Assembly: GCA_002839675.1 (NCBI GenBank)
Contig: PGYM01000001.1
Coordinates: 548,683 to 612,682 of the forward strand
DNA length: 64,000 bases
Reading direction: 5' to 3'
Origin: Methanomicrobiales archaeon HGW-Methanomicrobiales-1
GTDB lineage: Archaea > Halobacteriota > Methanomicrobia > Methanomicrobiales > Methanospirillaceae
Shown: piece after piece, positions 18,467 through 27,385 of the stretch
Layout: each line of letters opens with the position of its first letter
Position numbering within the stretch: position 1 is the stretch's first letter
Notes under the pieces: generated by a model
What the model saw: the letters and a program-made list of their open reading frames with translations, nothing else
Databases searched by the model: none
What the model was told of the DNA's origin: nothing
Translations under genes and position numbers: made by a program

Positions 18467-19684
18467 TTAGGATTGTGGATAAAGTTTTCCTGTATTACAT
18501 TCATCTGTAGATTTTTTCAGTGTGGTATATAATAATAGCACCCTTTTAATATATTGGATTAATCCATAACAAAAATGCCGAAACTTAGAATTATATCCTT
18601 CCGCGAAAATTAGCGCTCGAATCATGAGAATAATTTCGTATTTCATGGGCAACAGAATCAAGCCATTCGCAAGTATTCTGAACACAAATGAATTCTTATG
18701 AGTGATATTAAATGTTGTTTTATATCCATACGCATTCATCTTAACATGTAAAATTGTTTCGAGAATAAGTACTTCCCACCAAAAAAATTTTCCATGCCAG
18801 CGAGGCTCATCTGCATTGGAACGGAAACCTTGCAAAAAGCCATTACCACTTTTGGTGCGTGTATCCCCCCACCATTGTTTACCATGTACAGTTGATTTCA
18901 GAAGTGATGGAGAGTAAGTAATGTTGTATTCAGTACAGAACGACCGCAATATATGTTCTGGATTAGCATGAAGGGATTCTAAAGTAATTACCCGATCATC
19001 TTTCATTAAATTGCCCTGATGGCAACATAAAACGTATCGTAAAACATAGTTAAAGAGTTTTTGAAATTCGTATATATTACCTTTGCATTCAATCTTACCA
19101 TTGAAATCACTTGGATGAAAATCGATACGACTACTTAAGCCATTCAGAGGATGGCGCGTCATTAGCAGAACTTTCACATCTGGGAAATCCACCCTAAAAT
19201 GCTTAGGAGCATCTTTCCAGTGGATATGATAAAATAATAAACGCGTTTTGTAAATATTTTGTCTGGTCACTAAGGCATACGCAATGTGAATTGCAATAAA
19301 AAAATTTTTCTTATTGAAAGTATGCACCTTAAATATATTATAGAGATGTTGTTGGAACTCAAATGAATCAAAAGAGAAGGATTCGTTCTGGTTCTCTCCC
19401 AGTTTATCCCATCGCTCCATTTCAAATATTTTTCCCTCAAACTTATGGGAATATTCTAGCGTAAATTCATTAATCAAAAACTTGAGATCCCGATCCTTGA
19501 ATTTAGATCTTTCCCAGAATTGATGGAAATTCCAAATTCCCCTAAACGTTAGAATCTCTTCATGACCATCGAGCAGACTATCAAAAAAGTCACTGCCCCC
19601 ACGTGCATCTACGGTTAATGCTAGAATGGGGAGCTCGGAAACATGGTTAAAAAGCTCTTGATAATTAATGGTTTGTTCTTTCAT
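18467..19684 (-). CDS. PAPS-dependent sulfotransferase
   Basis: A 405-residue protein that I read as a sulfotransferase, moving the sulfuryl group of PAPS to an acceptor. Residues 20-44 (LALTVDARGGSDFFDSLLDG) match the 5'-phosphosulfate loop of the family, in which small residues precede a Ser/Thr-rich turn and LLDxHPxI. Residues 170-188 (KVLLMTRHPLNGLSSRIDFH) match the 3'-phosphate site, with R177 and S184/S185 in the expected R-x7-S spacing. RVITLESLHANPEHIL resembles the later 'yEdL...P' region. Near the C-terminus is a hydrophobic helix. It lies 16 bases after the PHP phosphatase gene and opposite the PAPS-forming operon. The acceptor is probably a surface glycan. The P-loop is divergent (GGSDFF rather than SGTTLL), so the call is strong mainly through context. 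Confidence 0.75.
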   Translation of the reverse strand: MKEQTINYQELFNHVSELPILALTVDARGGSDFFDSLLDGHEEILTFRGIWNFHQFWERSKFKDRDLKFLINEFTLEYSHKFEGKIFEMERWDKLGENQNESFSFDSFEFQQHLYNIFKVHTFNKKNFFIAIHIAYALVTRQNIYKTRLLFYHIHWKDAPKHFRVDFPDVKVLLMTRHPLNGLSSRIDFHPSDFNGKIECKGNIYEFQKLFNYVLRYVLCCHQGNLMKDDRVITLESLHANPEHILRSFCTEYNITYSPSLLKSTVHGKQWWGDTRTKSGNGFLQGFRSNADEPRWHGKFFWWEVLILETILHVKMNAYGYKTTFNITHKNSFVFRILANGLILLPMKYEIILMIRALIFAEGYNSKFRHFCYGLIQYIKRVLLLYTTLKKSTDECNTGKLYPQS

Positions 19685-19700
19685 AGATTGACTTTACCCA

Positions 19701-20648
19701 TCAATTAAAAAAATATTCATATTGTCCTCGTAATTCTTTATTTCGATGAAATTTATAATATTTTAACGTTTCAACATATTGTTTTTCCAATCGAACCTCC
19801 CCCAAACGCACGTCCTCCCAACCATGGCAGTCCGATCCCCCGGTCATGATCACACCATACTTTAACGCGGCACATTTATAATATTCAACTTGTTTTGAAG
19901 TATGTTTACTATAAAACACCTCTACCCCATCAAGCCCATATCCAACATACCGCGCAATATCCTTTTCACCGAGGGCACTCCGGTCCCCAAGATACCCGGG
20001 ATGAGCAAGGACTGCCACCCCACCAGCCTTATGAATCAGCCCAATAGCACCCTCTGGCGATATCTTAAACCTCTCAACATACGCCCTTCCTCCGCTGCCA
20101 ATATATTCGGGAGTAAATGCTTCTGCTGGCTCCCTGATATAGCCCATCTCCAGCATTGCCCGTGCAATATGCGGCCTGCCGATAAATGGCGTTCCCGAAA
20201 TATCACGCACTCGGTCTAAAGAAATATCGACACCAAGATCATTAAGCTTTTCTACCATCTCTACAGTTCGGTTATCACGAGCACGAATCATTTTTGATAG
20301 GAAATCGATTAGCATTATATTGGAGGGATCAATAAAATAGCCCAAAATATGTACTTCTTTCTCACCATCCAAGGTAGATAATTCAATTCCTGGAATTACT
20401 TCGATCTCCAGTTCATTACCTGCACTAATCGCCTCTTCAAGTCCGCTCGTGGAATCATGGTCAGTAATTGCAATAGCAGATAAACCTGCATCTTTTGCAA
20501 ATTTCACCATCTGGTATGGCGTGAGTGTGCCATCGGAAGCGGTGGTATGGAGATGTAGATCCGCTCCTCCAATAAAATTGTCGTCATTGTTGTTGAGGCT
20601 GGCAAGTAAATTTCCAGTTCTCATCTTGATTGTCTCGTGATCAGTCAT
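19701..20648 (-). CDS. PHP-domain phosphoesterase, candidate 3',5'-nucleotide (PAP) phosphatase
   Basis: A 315-residue PHP-superfamily metalloenzyme. Metal-binding motifs are all present: ADLHLHTTASDGTLTP, ITDHDS, EVIPGIELST, HILGYFID, RPHIARAM, VLAHPGY, DGVEVFY and MTGGSDCHG. This is the COG0613 (TrpH/YciV) subgroup. In bacteria, members hydrolyse 3',5'-bisphosphate nucleotides such as PAP to AMP (characterised for the Chromobacterium protein Cv1693) or act as a 5'-exonuclease (RNase AM). It is the first gene of an operon whose second gene is a sulfotransferase, which releases PAP, so PAP removal is the natural inference. The start may be the ATG at 20648 or the internal Met at codon 9. Confidence 0.85.
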   Translation of the reverse strand: MTDHETIKMRTGNLLASLNNNDDNFIGGADLHLHTTASDGTLTPYQMVKFAKDAGLSAIAITDHDSTSGLEEAISAGNELEIEVIPGIELSTLDGEKEVHILGYFIDPSNIMLIDFLSKMIRARDNRTVEMVEKLNDLGVDISLDRVRDISGTPFIGRPHIARAMLEMGYIREPAEAFTPEYIGSGGRAYVERFKISPEGAIGLIHKAGGVAVLAHPGYLGDRSALGEKDIARYVGYGLDGVEVFYSKHTSKQVEYYKCAALKYGVIMTGGSDCHGWEDVRLGEVRLEKQYVETLKYYKFHRNKELRGQYEYFFN

Positions 20649-21065: not shown

Positions 21066-22034
21066 ATGCGACAATTCGATATTACCGCTACAATTAATCC
21101 TAAAACAGTTGATGATAAATTTCTAATCGATTTACATCAATCAGGTGTTACAATATTCCGAATTAATGGTGCTCATATTGATCCGAGTGACATTACGGAA
21201 ATTTCAAAAAAAATAAAAAAATCGCTCAAAAATAAAGTGAAAATTCAAGTTGACCTCGAGGGATCAAAGATACGTACAAAAGATATCTATGAGCCAATAT
21301 GTATTAAAAAAGGGAAATTGATTGAATTAAAACAAACTAATTTTAACCGAACGGATTTTATTTCGATTCTCGATAAGGGGGACGTCATTCTTTCGAGTGA
21401 TGGGCAGTTGGAACTGACGGTTGAGAAGATCACAAAGGAGAAAGTATCATTATCTTCCCGTTGTGAAGGTTTTCTTCAGAATAACAAAGGGGTACATCTT
21501 ACAAGCAAATCACTTGCACATCTCCCGGTTTTTACACAAAAAGATCAGATATTAATAGAGCATATGAAAGAAAGTCAAATTGATTATGCAGGAATATCCT
21601 TTGTTCGCAGTCCTGAACAGGTTAAAGAGGTTCTATCTATATTCCATAATTCTCCGGTAAAACCAATTATTAAACTGGAGACAAAAGAAGCAACCAAAAA
21701 TGAGACCTTAAAGCAGATATTATCATTATATGATACATTTTCAATAGATCGGGGTGACCTGATGAGTGAAGTTGGGATAATTCAATTCCCAGAGGTATTT
21801 AACCATACGCTTGAGGCGTGCCTCTCATATAAGAAACGTATATTTGTAGCGACACAAATCTTTGCTTCAATGGTAAATCATAACTTACCATATATTTCTG
21901 AATTGATGGAATTTAGCAGATTATACCACGCTAACATTTCAGGAATCCAATTATCAGAAGAAATAGCTATTGGTAAATATCCATTCGAAATTCTCAAGTT
22001 GATCAATGAGATGAAAAAAAGCGGTGAAAAATAA
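21066..22034 (+). CDS. Pyruvate-kinase-like barrel protein lacking the C-terminal domain
   Basis: A 322-residue homologue of pyruvate kinase, which is normally about 470 residues. The A-domain start has FRINGAH (canonical RxNxSH). VDLEGSKIRT corresponds to LDTKGPEIRT, keeping the Asp and Arg but replacing Lys-Gly-Pro-Glu by Glu-Gly-Ser-Lys. An inserted B domain spans about residues 70-135. IIKLETKEA keeps the catalytic Lys and Glu (KIE in the family), SIDRGDLMSEVG keeps RGDL, and VATQIFASM matches ATQMLESM. The allosteric C-domain is wholly absent. It overlaps the APS kinase gene by one base (TAATG), so it belongs to the PAPS operon. It may recycle ADP to ATP with PEP for PAPS synthesis, or act on another substrate; the altered phosphate/metal-loop residues make standard kinase activity uncertain. 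Confidence 0.85.
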   Translation: MRQFDITATINPKTVDDKFLIDLHQSGVTIFRINGAHIDPSDITEISKKIKKSLKNKVKIQVDLEGSKIRTKDIYEPICIKKGKLIELKQTNFNRTDFISILDKGDVILSSDGQLELTVEKITKEKVSLSSRCEGFLQNNKGVHLTSKSLAHLPVFTQKDQILIEHMKESQIDYAGISFVRSPEQVKEVLSIFHNSPVKPIIKLETKEATKNETLKQILSLYDTFSIDRGDLMSEVGIIQFPEVFNHTLEACLSYKKRIFVATQIFASMVNHNLPYISELMEFSRLYHANISGIQLSEEIAIGKYPFEILKLINEMKKSGEK

Positions 22035-22570
22035 TGGGACCCGTTATTTGGTTTATTGGTCTGTCCGGGTCGGGAAAAACAACTCTGGCATTAAAAACCA
22101 GGGAATTTCTGGAGAAACACCCGAATATTTACCCTGATGTATCACACTGGGAAATAATTGATGGAGATATTGTGAGAGGATTTCTCGAATCTGAAATTGG
22201 TTACAATTTTGAAGACCGTAGGAAATCTGTTATTATTATGGGTCTTCTTGCATATTACCTGTCAAAAAATAATAATATCGGGGTAATTGTTGCAAACATT
22301 TCCCCTTTCCATGATATAAGACAAAAGTTCAGGAAGGAAATCCCTAGGTATACGGAAATTTTTTGTCAGTGCACAATATCTGCATGTATGAGCAGAGATC
22401 CAAAAGGTCATTATAAAAACCAATGCAGGAATGGAATTAAAAATTTTATAGGTCTCGATATACCATTTCAAGTGCCAGAAAATCCTCATTTGATATTGAA
22501 TACTGAATCTAATACCATTGATCAATGTATGGTATTAATCTCAAATTTTTTTTATGAATTAGAACAATGA
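22034..22570 (+). CDS. cysC: Adenylylsulfate (APS) kinase
   Basis: A 178-residue P-loop kinase that phosphorylates APS at the 3' position to make PAPS, the sulfuryl donor. GLSGSGKTT is the Walker A. IDGDIVRGF, NFEDRRKS, ANISPFHDIRQKFRKEI and RDPKGHYK follow in CysC order, with FIGLDIPFQVPENPHL in place of the usual FTGIDxPYExPxxPE. Length fits the stand-alone family (about 180-200). It overlaps the pyruvate-kinase-like gene by one base and ATP sulfurylase by four, so translation of the three is coupled. Very AT-rich. Confidence 0.93.
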   Translation: MGPVIWFIGLSGSGKTTLALKTREFLEKHPNIYPDVSHWEIIDGDIVRGFLESEIGYNFEDRRKSVIIMGLLAYYLSKNNNIGVIVANISPFHDIRQKFRKEIPRYTEIFCQCTISACMSRDPKGHYKNQCRNGIKNFIGLDIPFQVPENPHLILNTESNTIDQCMVLISNFFYELEQ

Positions 22571-23724
22571 GGTTAAAAATGATCGATCCATATGGCTCTA
22601 ATAAACTGGTTAATGGTTTTATCAAGGATAATCAGGAAAAAATCATTGAAGAGTTACAGGCTGAAAATACACCTTCGATTACTTGCAATGATGATATAAT
22701 TATTGAATGTAATCGTATTGCCGATGGCAGCTTGACTCCCGTTGATGGTTTTTTCAGAGAAAACGATCTTGATTCACTTATAGAAACAAATAAAACTGAA
22801 AATGGCTATTATTTTCCTATTCCTATTTTATTACAGACTCCGAAAATTACTAATGATGCCAAACTCGAAACGATGTTATTGAAAGATGAGGGTGGTAACA
22901 TTGTTGGCATTCTTGACGATATATCATTTTTTAAATATGATACTAAAAAAATTTGTGATTATATTTTTGGAAATTATGATCAACATCATCCCGGTGTAAA
23001 AAAAATATTATCAATGGGAAATAAATTTGTTGGAGGAAAAATTCAAATCGTCCCATCAGATTCCCCGTTATCACATTACTGCATGAGTCCTACTAATTCC
23101 AGAAAAGAGATAATAAAACGTAAATGGAAAACCTGTGTCGGTTTCCAGACTCGAAACATTCCCCATAGATCTCATGAGTATTTGCAGAGAATTGCATTAG
23201 AATTTTTTGATGGTCTTTTAATTCACCCAATTATTGGATGGAAAAAAAATAATGACTATCGACCAGAAGTCGTAATGGAAGTATACAAATATCTTGTGAA
23301 TACCTACTATCCAAAAAACCGGGTGATTTTAAGTGGATTAGAAGCCCAAATGAGGTATGCTGGGCCAAAAGAGGCAGTACTTCATGCAATTATACGACAG
23401 AACTATGGTTGCAGTCACTTTATTGTTGGAAGAGATCATGCCGGAGTGAATAATTATTACGGGAAGTATGACGCCCATTTGATATTTGATTCCGTTCAAA
23501 AATATTTAGACATTTCAATATTAAAACTCAAAGGACCATATTATTGTAAAAAATGCAAATGCATCACCACTGAAAATTCCTGCGGTCATGACACACGGTA
23601 TCATATAGATGTCAGTGGAACAAAAATTAGAAATTTCCTGCAATCTTCGCACTCACCCCCAGCTACACTTATTCGAAAAGACATAACAAACCGAATTCTA
23701 CAATTTGATGAGATTTTTATCTGA
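22567..23724 (+). CDS. sat: ATP sulfurylase (sulfate adenylyltransferase)
   Basis: A 385-residue homo-oligomeric-type ATP sulfurylase that forms APS and pyrophosphate from ATP and sulfate. An N-terminal PUA-like domain (IADGSLTPVDGFF) precedes the catalytic domain with GFQTRNIPHRSHEYLQ (canonical QTRNPxHxxH), GRDHAGVNNYYG and VSGTKIRNFL. A zinc-binding Cys set, YYCKKCKCIT to NSCGH, near residues 330-348 matches the bacterial/archaeal single-domain form. It is the last gene of the three-gene operon. The RNP is RNI-P here, a small deviation in the nucleotide loop. Together with APS kinase it supplies PAPS. Confidence 0.95.
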   Translation: MRLKMIDPYGSNKLVNGFIKDNQEKIIEELQAENTPSITCNDDIIIECNRIADGSLTPVDGFFRENDLDSLIETNKTENGYYFPIPILLQTPKITNDAKLETMLLKDEGGNIVGILDDISFFKYDTKKICDYIFGNYDQHHPGVKKILSMGNKFVGGKIQIVPSDSPLSHYCMSPTNSRKEIIKRKWKTCVGFQTRNIPHRSHEYLQRIALEFFDGLLIHPIIGWKKNNDYRPEVVMEVYKYLVNTYYPKNRVILSGLEAQMRYAGPKEAVLHAIIRQNYGCSHFIVGRDHAGVNNYYGKYDAHLIFDSVQKYLDISILKLKGPYYCKKCKCITTENSCGHDTRYHIDVSGTKIRNFLQSSHSPPATLIRKDITNRILQFDEIFI

Positions 23725-23806: not shown

Positions 23807-25714
23807 TCAGGATCGAGCCTTAACCTCGTTTTCTATAATTTCAAGAGCACGTTTTGATACATTTCCATCTAGTTTGTGAACACCGTACATTTCAAGATAT
23901 TCGATATTTTCCATATCAGGACTCTGTTTTACATCAATTCCCTTCATATAATCGGAGATCAACTTAACAAATTCTTCCACATCATCACTCCAGTAAACCC
24001 TTTTTTTGAGGAGAGTAAGTGCTTCTGTTCTCAGGTGCGGAGAGGCGAGCAACACAAAAATAGTTTTATGAGCTGCGATTGCTTCAATAACCGGGGTACT
24101 GGGATAATCGCAAATAACGATATCTGCTTCATTAAGAAGTTCGACAAATGACCGTTCAAAATGAATCAGGGAAATATTAGTGAATCCATTTTCATTTATA
24201 TATTCTGAAAATAGGGGAGTCTCGTATTCTTGGGGCATAAGTTTGAAAATAGTAGGGACCTGAGAGTTGCCTAACAGATTAAGAATGGTTTTTTGATAGT
24301 GCCACTGTGTATTATCAGGAATGGGATAATTGTTTACATTAAGATTGCTATAATAAAATTGTGCTGTTACATACAGAATCTTGTTTTCATGTTTAATCGT
24401 TGTATTTTTCTGATAGATTTTTTCGAGAATCAATGATCCAACCGATTCAATGCGGGAGTTAAAATGATTATGGGGCGCTTCACGTAACATTACCTGATGT
24501 CCAGGTCCATAGCTCATATGAACATCCGAGTCTCTGATTTCAATAAAAATCTGCATTGGGGGGTAAAACGGACCATCGCCATGCTGCCATGCGATAACCG
24601 GAATATTTCTGGACTGAGCGATATGAGCATACATGTGTTCATAAAAGAACGCTTTTTCTGAACTAAGAAACGCTACAGGTTTATATTTATCAATTTTCAG
24701 TTTAAGATTTTGCACTATTTCCGGGGCGTAACTGAAATACTTCTCAAGAACAGGAAAAAATCTTTCTTCAAAAATTTGGGAAAAATCAATACCACGATAG
24801 ACACAAACATCTCTGAATATTTCAACAAGTTGTTTATTTATTGTAATATCAAAATCAGATTCCTGCGAAAAAGACTCTGTTATTTCAGACAAATTTACTA
24901 CATGGTACCCATGACGGTATAATGCACCGTTCATGGGAATCCAACTGGGTTCATCCCTAAAAAGAAACAGGGTCTTTTTGTTGCAGATTGGATTTATGAG
25001 TTTTAAATATCTGAATTCAAGCATGTTCCAATTAGGATTTAATATAAAATCCTTTATCGCGATAACCCTACGATAAATAAAACGATATTGTCTAAAAATT
25101 CCTGCGAACGAGCTGGATAATGAACATCTATTATGTGCCGGTTTATTGACAGGACTTTTATTTTTTCTCTGAAGCAGTTTTATTTCAGGATTCCAGCTGT
25201 TAATACCTAAAAGAATGTTAAATATACTCTCATTGAGACCAAAAGGCGTGTAAAACGGCATGTTTTGAACGCTGGGAGACCTTTTTTCGGAAGAAAAAGT
25301 GATAATTTCATCAGGTTTTTCACGCTCAATAATTGAATGAATTATAGATATTCGTAATGTCAGGTTGTCAAAAAGTATCTTCAGAAAACGAAAATTATCA
25401 AATGCCGGTTTAAAAGAATATTTTTTTAATTCAGGCTTGGATTCCTGAAGAACAGAATCGATTTTAGAACAGATAGACTCAACGGTTTCATAATTTTTTA
25501 TTCCTTGTGAATAAATTAGGTCTGAATCATAATAAATTTCAATTCCTCTATATAAAACACCTTTTTTTTCAAGTTCCCAGCATACATCCGGAATAGTGGC
25601 AATAACAATATGTGATCCATGAATGTTTTCCCGGATTTCAAGATACTCAAATACATCATTACGATGTTCCAGAAAAATTACGACTTTATGATCTAAACCT
25701 GATATATCTGCCAT
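23807..25714 (-). CDS. Putative GT-B glycosyltransferase of a nonulosonate-type locus
   Basis: A 635-residue protein of two halves. The last 320 residues look like a GT-B nucleotide-sugar domain with FLSSEKAFFYEHMYAHIA, VIAWQHGDGPFYP, a SYGPGHQV segment and a late ADIVICDYPSTPVIEAIAAHK region. This resembles capsule, CDP-glycerol and sialyl-type transferases. The first half (DHKVVIFLEHRNDVFEYLEI) may be the acceptor domain. It closes the operon carrying the PseI/NeuB synthase, so transfer of the resulting CMP-nonulosonic acid is a reasonable guess. I cannot name the family with certainty. It converges on the ATP sulfurylase gene with about 80 bases between them. Confidence 0.6.
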   Translation of the reverse strand: MADISGLDHKVVIFLEHRNDVFEYLEIRENIHGSHIVIATIPDVCWELEKKGVLYRGIEIYYDSDLIYSQGIKNYETVESICSKIDSVLQESKPELKKYSFKPAFDNFRFLKILFDNLTLRISIIHSIIEREKPDEIITFSSEKRSPSVQNMPFYTPFGLNESIFNILLGINSWNPEIKLLQRKNKSPVNKPAHNRCSLSSSFAGIFRQYRFIYRRVIAIKDFILNPNWNMLEFRYLKLINPICNKKTLFLFRDEPSWIPMNGALYRHGYHVVNLSEITESFSQESDFDITINKQLVEIFRDVCVYRGIDFSQIFEERFFPVLEKYFSYAPEIVQNLKLKIDKYKPVAFLSSEKAFFYEHMYAHIAQSRNIPVIAWQHGDGPFYPPMQIFIEIRDSDVHMSYGPGHQVMLREAPHNHFNSRIESVGSLILEKIYQKNTTIKHENKILYVTAQFYYSNLNVNNYPIPDNTQWHYQKTILNLLGNSQVPTIFKLMPQEYETPLFSEYINENGFTNISLIHFERSFVELLNEADIVICDYPSTPVIEAIAAHKTIFVLLASPHLRTEALTLLKKRVYWSDDVEEFVKLISDYMKGIDVKQSPDMENIEYLEMYGVHKLDGNVSKRALEIIENEVKARS

Positions 25715-25754: not shown

Positions 25755-26303
25755 TTATATGATATTCATGTTGTTGTGGTTTTTATCAGATTTTAATGTG
25801 CCATACATCAGAGAATCATTCCATTTTCCCTCAGACCAGTGTGTTTCACGAAGGGTTCCCTCAAGTTTAAAACCGAGAATAGCCATGAGTTTCTGTTTGG
25901 GAGTATCAAACTCAAAAACTTCAGCGTATATACGATGGAGATTCAATTCGTCAAATCCGTACTTGATAAGAATGGATCCTGCGTCAGAAGCAAATTTTTC
26001 ATCAATATATATATTGCCTGCACCAATATAGAGCGAAAAATCGGCATTCCTTTGTATCCAGTTGATGTAACATAGTCCACATGCCCCAATTAATATATCA
26101 TTATTAAGGTCAACAATAGCAAACATGATGGTGTTTCTGTCATTTTGAATAATGTTTTCGAACCAGTTTTCCTGATTTATATAACTTAACTCTCGGTATT
26201 CCCGGAAATACCTCCGTAATTGAGGTAAATTTCGCCATTCCAGCATCTGGTGGATATCCTCTTTTTCAATTGCTCTTAATCCTATGATATTTCCGTGAAT
26301 CAT
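25755..26303 (-). CDS. GNAT N-acetyltransferase, PseH-like
   Basis: A 182-residue acetyltransferase of the RimJ/PseH type: LRAIEKEDIHQMLEWRN at the N-terminus, IGACGLCYINWIQRNADFSLYIG in the core and IYIDEKFASDAGSILIKYGFDELNLHRI over the acetyl-CoA region. PseH acetylates the 4-amino group of UDP-4-amino-4,6-dideoxy-AltNAc in pseudaminic acid synthesis. The gene touches the PseI/NeuB-type synthase, which supports that role. The acyl group (acetyl or another) cannot be read. Confidence 0.8.
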   Translation of the reverse strand: MIHGNIIGLRAIEKEDIHQMLEWRNLPQLRRYFREYRELSYINQENWFENIIQNDRNTIMFAIVDLNNDILIGACGLCYINWIQRNADFSLYIGAGNIYIDEKFASDAGSILIKYGFDELNLHRIYAEVFEFDTPKQKLMAILGFKLEGTLRETHWSEGKWNDSLMYGTLKSDKNHNNMNII

Positions 26304-27385
26304 CAGGATAACTCCATGTCTGTTAGGGAAATATCTTCCCCGTGTTGCTTATACGTTTTAATCTTTTTTCCCAGCAACAAATCAATATCGTATGGTTGGA
26401 CTGCACCCAATATTGATGGCCGTAAAATTTCCAGATCATCCCGGTTTATTATAGATTCTGGTTTAAGTTCATGAGCCGCTCTGATACACCGCCGCTGGAT
26501 TATTGCAGTCTCATTCTCATTTTTTTCAATAGTTTTGATACCTGAGCCGAGTGCAACTTCTAGATCCCGGGTATTTTCTACCATATCTTTCCATGATCTA
26601 GGATTCATTGAGAACGAATGATCCGGACCTACCCGGTTATTATCATCGGTAAAATGTTTTTCGATGACTCTTGCCCCAAGGGAAACTGCTCCAAGCACAG
26701 CGGTATATCCTGGCGTATGGTCGGAAAACCCAAGGACCATTCTGGGAAATTGTTTTGCATATGTTTTTAATACGTTTAAATTTACATAACGGAAATTATC
26801 ACGACATCCGGTGTAATTAGTATTACATTGGAGAAGGACAAGATTGCGGTTATGTTTCAGGACTGCTGCTACGGCCCTTTCAACGTCTCCCATGGAGGAT
26901 GCCCCTGTTGCAAGAAGTACTGGCTTTCCTTGCAGTGCTATGTATTCCAGAAATTCAGTCCACGTGATATCCCCGGATCCAATTTTAAATGCGGGGATAA
27001 CGTTCTTGAAGAGATCAACCGCTTCAAAATCATATGGTGTTGTAAGAAGATCAATGCCTTCTTTTCGGGCAGTCTCTATGAGATCCAAGGTCCATTCTCT
27101 TGGACATTCATACTCCTTATATGTATCAAATACTGATTTTTTCCATTCATTCTGATGTCCAATTTTCGTTTTTAAGTGAGAAAATCCGTAATCACTTACA
27201 ATTTTGGTTGCCCGAAAATGCTGGAATTTAACTGCATCTGCACCACTTTGTTTGGCAAGCCGAATAAGATCATGAGCACGATCAAGATTACCATCATGGT
27301 TCGATGCAATATCCGCAATGAAATAAACAGAATCATTGATCGAGATTTTCCTATCATTAATTTTAATAAATTGGTTATATTTCAA
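26303..27385 (-). CDS. pseI: N-acetylneuraminate/pseudaminic acid synthase family
   Basis: A 360-residue NeuB/PseI-type synthase that condenses phosphoenolpyruvate with a 2,4-diacetamido or N-acetyl hexose to form a nine-carbon nonulosonic acid. The TIM barrel starts IADIASNHDGNLDRAHDLI and has DAVKFQHF, TTPYDFEAVD, KIGSGDITW, LLATGASS, GFSDHTPGY and EKHFTDD. These contain the usual Glu/His metal and PEP residues, and a C-terminal antifreeze-like SAF domain begins near residue 300. It is 11 bases into the RmlD-like gene upstream. The specific product (Pse, Leg or Neu) is an inference; the PseB, PseH-like and PseA-like genes favour pseudaminic or legionaminic type. Confidence 0.92.
   Translation of the reverse strand: MKYNQFIKINDRKISINDSVYFIADIASNHDGNLDRAHDLIRLAKQSGADAVKFQHFRATKIVSDYGFSHLKTKIGHQNEWKKSVFDTYKEYECPREWTLDLIETARKEGIDLLTTPYDFEAVDLFKNVIPAFKIGSGDITWTEFLEYIALQGKPVLLATGASSMGDVERAVAAVLKHNRNLVLLQCNTNYTGCRDNFRYVNLNVLKTYAKQFPRMVLGFSDHTPGYTAVLGAVSLGARVIEKHFTDDNNRVGPDHSFSMNPRSWKDMVENTRDLEVALGSGIKTIEKNENETAIIQRRCIRAAHELKPESIINRDDLEILRPSILGAVQPYDIDLLLGKKIKTYKQHGEDISLTDMELS

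Follow-up and report, generated by a model that had tools for sequence, protein, structure and literature searches.

A pyruvate kinase subfamily with its own sequence signature, linked and in places fused to ATP sulfurylase in bacteria and archaea

Few nucleotide-transfer reactions in metabolism are as unfavourable as sulfate activation, which is known to be aided by pyrophosphatase, APS kinase and the CysN GTPase. Pyruvate kinases (PKs) without a C-terminal domain are already known, as are K+-independent PKs and fusions of ATP sulfurylase (Sat) with APS kinase (CysC). The published marks of the K+-independent enzymes are a Leu at position 113 and a Lys at position 117 of the rabbit protein (PMC8835810, PMC4284704). 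With human PAPS synthase in vitro, PAPS synthesis nearly stopped when the PK/PEP module was left out, because APS kinase was trapped with APS and ADP (PMC9885120). No description of a PK linked or fused to sat or cysC was found in the open-licence PMC literature searched, nor was one of the PK subfamily reported here, which has its own signature and is linked or fused to ATP sulfurylase.

The window, that is, the whole 64,000-nucleotide stretch of DNA that was analysed, comes from Methanomicrobiales archaeon HGW-Methanomicrobiales-1. Its PK-like gene (21066..22034, + strand) starts with ATG and encodes 322 aa, with the PK barrel (A) and B domains. PF00224, the PK barrel, spans residues 2-308 and profile positions 2-326 of 328 (E 4.2e-38; 131.7 bits, cut-off 30). 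The Pfam search gave no match to the PK_C domain (PF02887) in this protein, whose ORF ends at 322 aa; both the coordinates and the loss of the whole C-terminal domain are as the original prediction had them. Against the full-length equivalog TIGR01064 the protein reaches 175.2 bits, under the cut-off of 306.4, owing to its short length and its divergence. An AlphaFold2 model built from 28 aligned sequences (mean pLDDT 94.4, pTM 0.90) has the PK fold over its full length, and its closest matches in the PDB are pyruvate kinases without exception: the top VIA match has Z 34.8, with 319 residues aligned at rmsd 2.0, and Foldseek gives TM 0.84-0.91 against the PDB pyruvate kinases. The alignment places the PK catalytic residues at R32, N34, D63, K141, K203, E205, R-G-D231 and T263, including those of the Lys, Glu, RGDL and ATQ motifs that had been named beforehand, and they are conserved across the subfamily, which we call D-type and define below. 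Judged by this alignment, D-type PKs retain every residue that PEP, Mg and phosphoryl transfer require.

The stop codon of the PK gene (TAA, 22032-22034) gives its last A to the cysC ATG at 22034, in agreement with the one-base overlap first noticed there, and cysC and sat in turn share 4 bp (ATGA); because of these overlaps of 1 bp and 4 bp, the three genes look translationally coupled. The cysC gene (22034..22570, + strand) encodes a probable APS kinase of 178 aa whose solved relatives are APS kinases; PF01583 is above its cut-off (E 1.6e-32), and TIGR00455, with 127.6 bits, is below its own (138.7). The sat gene (22567..23724, + strand) encodes an ATP sulfurylase of 385 aa (PF01747, E 1.1e-79; NCBIfam PRK04149, 414.7 bits, cut-off 387), to which the closest solved structure is M. 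thermolithotrophicus Sat 8a8d. A PHP-domain phosphatase gene (19701..20648, - strand; NF041577, E 3.8e-52, 177 bits, below the cut-off of 400) likely encodes a 3',5'-nucleoside bisphosphate (PAP) phosphatase that would recycle the by-product of sulfation. Next to it lies the gene of a putative sulfotransferase of 405 aa (18467..19684, - strand), which matches Sulfotransfer_3 only at E 0.03; a homologue with 30% identity, encoded beside cysC-sat-PK in Acidobacterium, matches at E 1.5e-10, and the window protein is likely a PAPS user. Together, the PK, cysC, sat, sulfotransferase-like and PHP genes would be parts of a cycle in which PAPS is made, used and recycled.

By context, this module sits in or beside a surface-glycan cluster with a NeuB-family nonulosonate synthase gene (26303..27385, - strand; Pfam NeuB, E 2e-72), and NeuB homologues recur in sat-PK loci. 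Between the module and the NeuB cluster, directly convergent with sat, there is a gene for a 635-aa protein (23807-25714, - strand), which matches no Pfam family up to E 10 and is possibly a glycan transferase. As a separate observation, PK-linked APS kinases of other loci (L070, L076, L078, L089, L090) carry Gln, and the window CysC (22034-22570) carries Ser, at the site where E. coli APS kinase has the Asn of its R-x-x-N-I-R-R motif; these replacements may affect APS binding.

The residue just before the catalytic R-G-D distinguishes this protein from ordinary PKs. D-type PKs, as defined here, carry the signature [IV]DRGDL, and ordinary PKs have [IV]ARGD[LM]: the residue is Asp in 58/58 D-type PKs and Ala in 71/71 non-redundant ordinary ones. 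In the window it is Asp228 (codon GAT, 21747..21749, + strand, in SIDRGDL), diagnostic of the sat-linked subfamily, and the alignment has Asp in the window PK and in all 38 of the 38 sat-adjacent PKs, and in none of the compared ordinary PKs. We take the Ala of ordinary PKs to lie near the methyl group of pyruvate. Position 35 is Gly in D-type PKs and a bulky residue in ordinary ones, position 67 is Arg, Asn, Lys or Ser (S67 in the window) as against Pro, and positions 233 and 277 are likewise class-specific. The original prediction had instead pointed to the VDLEGSKIRT motif (21249..21278, + strand), as unusual for the family and as a possible mark of a new activity. This motif is partly ordinary, and its standing as such a mark is not supported: its L64 and K68 are of the K+-independent type and agree with two of the positions that describe that class (Lys117, Leu113/Gln114/(L,I,V)120), the window PK having Glu at 114 and Thr at 120. 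Even so, EGS[KQ][IV]RT is common to the window PK and the Woesearchaeota PK-Sat fusions described below; the residue that separates the classes is D228. A quick ML tree groups the window PK, on a very long branch (4.69), with the D-type PKs of Planctomycetota and Omnitrophota (SH-aLRT 94).

When 84,980 species genomes were scanned for designed motifs ([FI]VATQ[IVM]F[AES]S or the DRGDL type), 80 loci were obtained, and in about half of them Sat adjoins the PK. The order cysC-sat-PK was found in Pelagibacterales, Rhodospirillaceae, SAR116, Gammaproteobacteria, Bacteroidota, Elusimicrobiota, Acidimicrobiia and Acidobacteria, and Parcubacteria and Woesearchaeota have PK with Sat. For comparison, 20 ordinary PKs were fetched from the same genomes, and none (0/20) is near Sat. 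When these and the scan loci are counted together, Sat is close by for 37/57 D-type PKs and for 1/43 of the others (Fisher p about 1e-11), a value that is slightly conservative, as the single exception is a DRGDL protein misread by the regular expression.

Since the motif-based scan is enriched for D-type PKs, two phylum surveys were run in which PKs were sought independently of both Sat and the motif. Among the best 25 PK loci of the Woesearchaeota phylum (279 genomes), all 8 D-type PKs are Sat-linked, six by fusion and two by adjacency, as against 0/17 ordinary PKs. The Planctomycetota (246 genomes) gave D-type PKs with Sat in 13/13 cases and ordinary PKs with Sat in 0/17, which brings the two surveys to 0/34 for ordinary PKs; one planctomycete locus has a 333-aa PK ORF adjoining Sat, like that of the window. 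A sample of 385 alphaproteobacterial genomes, in which close matches only were taken in and ordinary PKs did not serve as controls, had 15 with a close relative, 15/15 of them D-type and 15/15 beside Sat. Many relatives adjoin Sat without CysC, and for this reason the partner of D-type PKs is, by gene neighbourhood, Sat more than APS kinase; six Sat-PK genomes without a nearby CysC, probably incomplete MAGs, show no APS kinase anywhere. An ordinary PK above the cut-off is also carried by 14 of 22 sat-linked genomes, and the D-type gene is therefore a paralogue there, while it is the only clear PK found in Pelagibacterales, Parcubacteria, Woesearchaeota and some single-cell or incomplete genomes. 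In Aquirufa and Elusimicrobia the triple has a CysQ-type PAP phosphatase and a sulfotransferase in its neighbourhood. In viral contigs, the designed pattern sets gave no hits, and a generic PK alignment found ordinary PKs only.

Two loci add observations of their own. In one (L089, 1315-4102, - strand), phosphonopyruvate decarboxylase-like and PEP-mutase-like genes, as read from the sequence, lie 2-5 kb from the cysC-sat-PK triple. In an Elusimicrobia MAG (L079, 8001-9014), a one-barrel PK of 339 aa has the ordinary ARGDL motif and no Sat nearby.

In six genomes of the Woesearchaeota phylum the PK is fused to Sat, and two of these fusions continue into APS kinase. A single ORF of 931 aa (L135) comprises PK, PUA_2, ATP-sulfurylase and APS_kinase domains, another of 759 aa (L161) is PK-PUA_2-ATP-sulfurylase, and tblastn shows PK-Sat or PK-Sat-CysC at four further loci (L162-L165). 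That such fusions occur in several genomes is strong evidence for joint action of PK and Sat. A different fusion is found in Planctomycetota (L060-L066, L112) and Omnitrophota (L059), where the D-type barrel is joined to a MobA-like nucleotidyltransferase that is nearest to inositol-1-phosphate cytidylyltransferases; Sat comes next, often with a CDP-alcohol phosphotransferase, and genes of the latter type recur near D-type PKs. This arrangement is suggestive of a head-group pathway that includes sulfate activation. Chance adjacency of PK and Sat was considered and rejected on the grounds of recurrence and fusions. The tie between a PK homologue and sulfate activation, as originally predicted from the operon in the window, is thus borne out by gene association or fusion in about ten phyla, and the PK-cysC-sat triple, far from being unique to one genome, recurs across phyla.

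Not all D-type PKs are accompanied by Sat. In the quick ML tree, 16 proteobacterial Sat-free sequences form one clade inside the D-type PKs (SH-aLRT 99), and nearly all of them belong to a conserved three-gene operon with a TauE/SafE-like permease and an AEC-type permease, which was seen in Pseudomonas, Enterobacterales, Burkholderiaceae and Azospirillaceae (L077, L080, L082, L084, L087, L092, L103, L104, L106, L111, L115, L116, L123, L137). Annotation of the PKs of these operons as glycolytic may be mistaken. A Komagataeibacter plasmid carries the gene of a 337-aa one-barrel D-type PK that overlaps a sulfotransferase gene and has no Sat nearby, and in Aquirufa a TauE-family protein follows the triple, ahead of CysQ and the sulfotransferase.

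The host genome (2.47 Mb, 97.7% complete) encodes methyl-coenzyme M reductase and is therefore that of a methanogen. The window PK is its sole PK-family protein, and it has one PPDK_N protein, of PEP-synthase type. No PK was found in 35 other genomes of the genus, and ATP sulfurylase is present in 1/39 genomes of the genus, that of the host. That a single species has both PK and Sat, which the genus otherwise lacks, is what is expected of an imported unit, and the PK-cysC-sat module looks to have been imported as one operon. Searches of 232 genomes of the class and 392 of the phylum found no closer relatives of the window PK and yielded only ordinary, full-length PKs with at most 33% identity to it.

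We regard a functional link between D-type PKs and sulfate activation as very nearly certain. The predicted fold, the catalytic residues, the operon, the association and fusion with Sat, the signature and the joint occurrence of PK and Sat are all drawn from sequence, and the mechanism that we propose on this basis runs as follows. Sat would form APS from ATP and sulfate, and CysC would convert APS to PAPS with formation of ADP, which the PK-like enzyme, presumably acting next to Sat and CysC, would re-phosphorylate with PEP. A sulfotransferase would then spend PAPS on a surface glycan, and the PHP phosphatase would clear PAP. Removal of ADP would prevent the dead-end complex of APS kinase with ADP and APS and keep ATP high at Sat. 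Given the retained catalytic residues, the ADP formed by CysC, the dead-end complex and the in vitro precedent, ATP regeneration is the simplest reading, and recycling of ADP by PEP would be a reasonable mechanism. Local formation of ATP from PEP by the window PK, with removal of the ADP inhibitory to APS kinase, has in our judgement an even chance of being the right explanation.

Several features speak against ATP regeneration. It does not call for the invariant Asp beside R-G-D or for the changes at positions 35, 67, 233 and 277; many Sat-linked loci lack CysC, and Sat releases PPi and not ADP; and the Sat-free PK-TauE-AEC operons and the nucleotidyltransferase fusion of Planctomycetota count against it as well. 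The invariant Asp, the CysC-less clusters, the transporter operons and the nucleotidyltransferase fusions suggest another substrate for at least part of the subfamily. In this regard, we tentatively entertain, as a sizeable minority view, that D-type PKs have a new activity that does not make ATP but uses PEP or an enolate to act on APS/PAPS, PPi or a sulfation acceptor; the PK barrel that carries it would have been reshaped at D228, G35 and position 67, and in some archaea it is fused to ATP sulfurylase. Somewhat more doubtful, though possible, is that PK-type phosphoryl transfer is kept and acts on a changed substrate of sulfation or head-group metabolism, for example as a PEP-dependent kinase of APS, PAP, AMP, a small alcohol or a hydroxy acid, its pocket being reshaped by D228 and G35. 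The fully class-specific change from Ala to Asp with its correlated changes would fit such a role, as would the presence of D-type PKs with Sat even where CysC is missing, the planctomycete nucleotidyltransferase fusion with its CDP-alcohol phosphotransferase downstream, the Sat-free permease operons and the overlapping sulfotransferase-PK pair of the Komagataeibacter plasmid; however, the catalytic residues listed above are all in place, and no candidate substrate has come to light.

The more constant linkage of PK to Sat than to CysC could also mean that PK pulls Sat thermodynamically by consuming PPi or another Sat product, as a PEP-driven counterpart of the GTP-driven CysDN, and both fused partners, Sat and the NTP-transferase domain, release PPi. 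Yet we know of no PK that uses PPi, pyrophosphatases are common, and this conjectural reading is in our view improbable. It is very improbable that the window PK is the general cellular pyruvate kinase of its host. The original prediction had raised this possibility in case a normal PK was absent, and a second PK is indeed absent from the host genome; the general role does not follow, since the 35 genomes of the same genus also live without a PK, the host has the PEP synthase-type PPDK_N protein, and the gene shares an operon with cysC and sat, Sat being equally missing from the rest of the genus. Fusion to Sat could, finally, befit a non-catalytic scaffold or a PEP-sensing regulator of Sat, a role that conservation of the catalytic residues across the subfamily makes highly improbable.

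A PK subfamily that travels and fuses with ATP sulfurylase in bacteria and archaea would power or extend sulfate activation in an unrecognised manner, and its gene associations point to a step in sulfation, energy-coupling or catalytic, that has so far escaped recognition. The PK-Sat fusion is a ready single-chain enzyme, and genes annotated as pyruvate kinase that encode DRGDL may not be glycolytic.

Among described systems, the K+-independent PKs (EC 2.7.1.40; PykA-like, Lys117/Leu113) resemble the window PK in barrel and B domain, in catalytic residues and in the Lys and Leu at the K+-site positions; the window PK differs from them in that the residue before R-G-D is Asp and not Ala, R-x-N is followed by Gly, the C-terminal domain is missing, identity is about 30%, and the gene shares an operon with sulfate activation. 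The one-barrel PK of Entamoeba histolytica (PDB 8iw2, 321 aa; Z 33.7) is of similar length and also lacks the C-terminal domain, but it is eukaryotic and has 22% identity to the window PK in this structural comparison. Bifunctional PAPS synthases (Sat-CysC, e.g. 2gks and human PAPSS1) likewise join successive enzymes of sulfate activation in one chain; they have no PK domain, whereas in the D-type fusions PK stands N-terminal to Sat or Sat-CysC. CysDN, the GTPase-coupled ATP sulfurylase, may be an analogue in purpose, as an extra high-energy phosphate favours APS formation there, although the proteins are unrelated and the coupling by PK is hypothetical. In the engineered in-vitro PAPS cascades, PK and PEP regenerate ATP for APS kinase (PMC9885120), as in the mechanism proposed here; those are artificial mixtures with an ordinary PK, whereas D-type PKs meet sulfate activation in natural operons and fusions.
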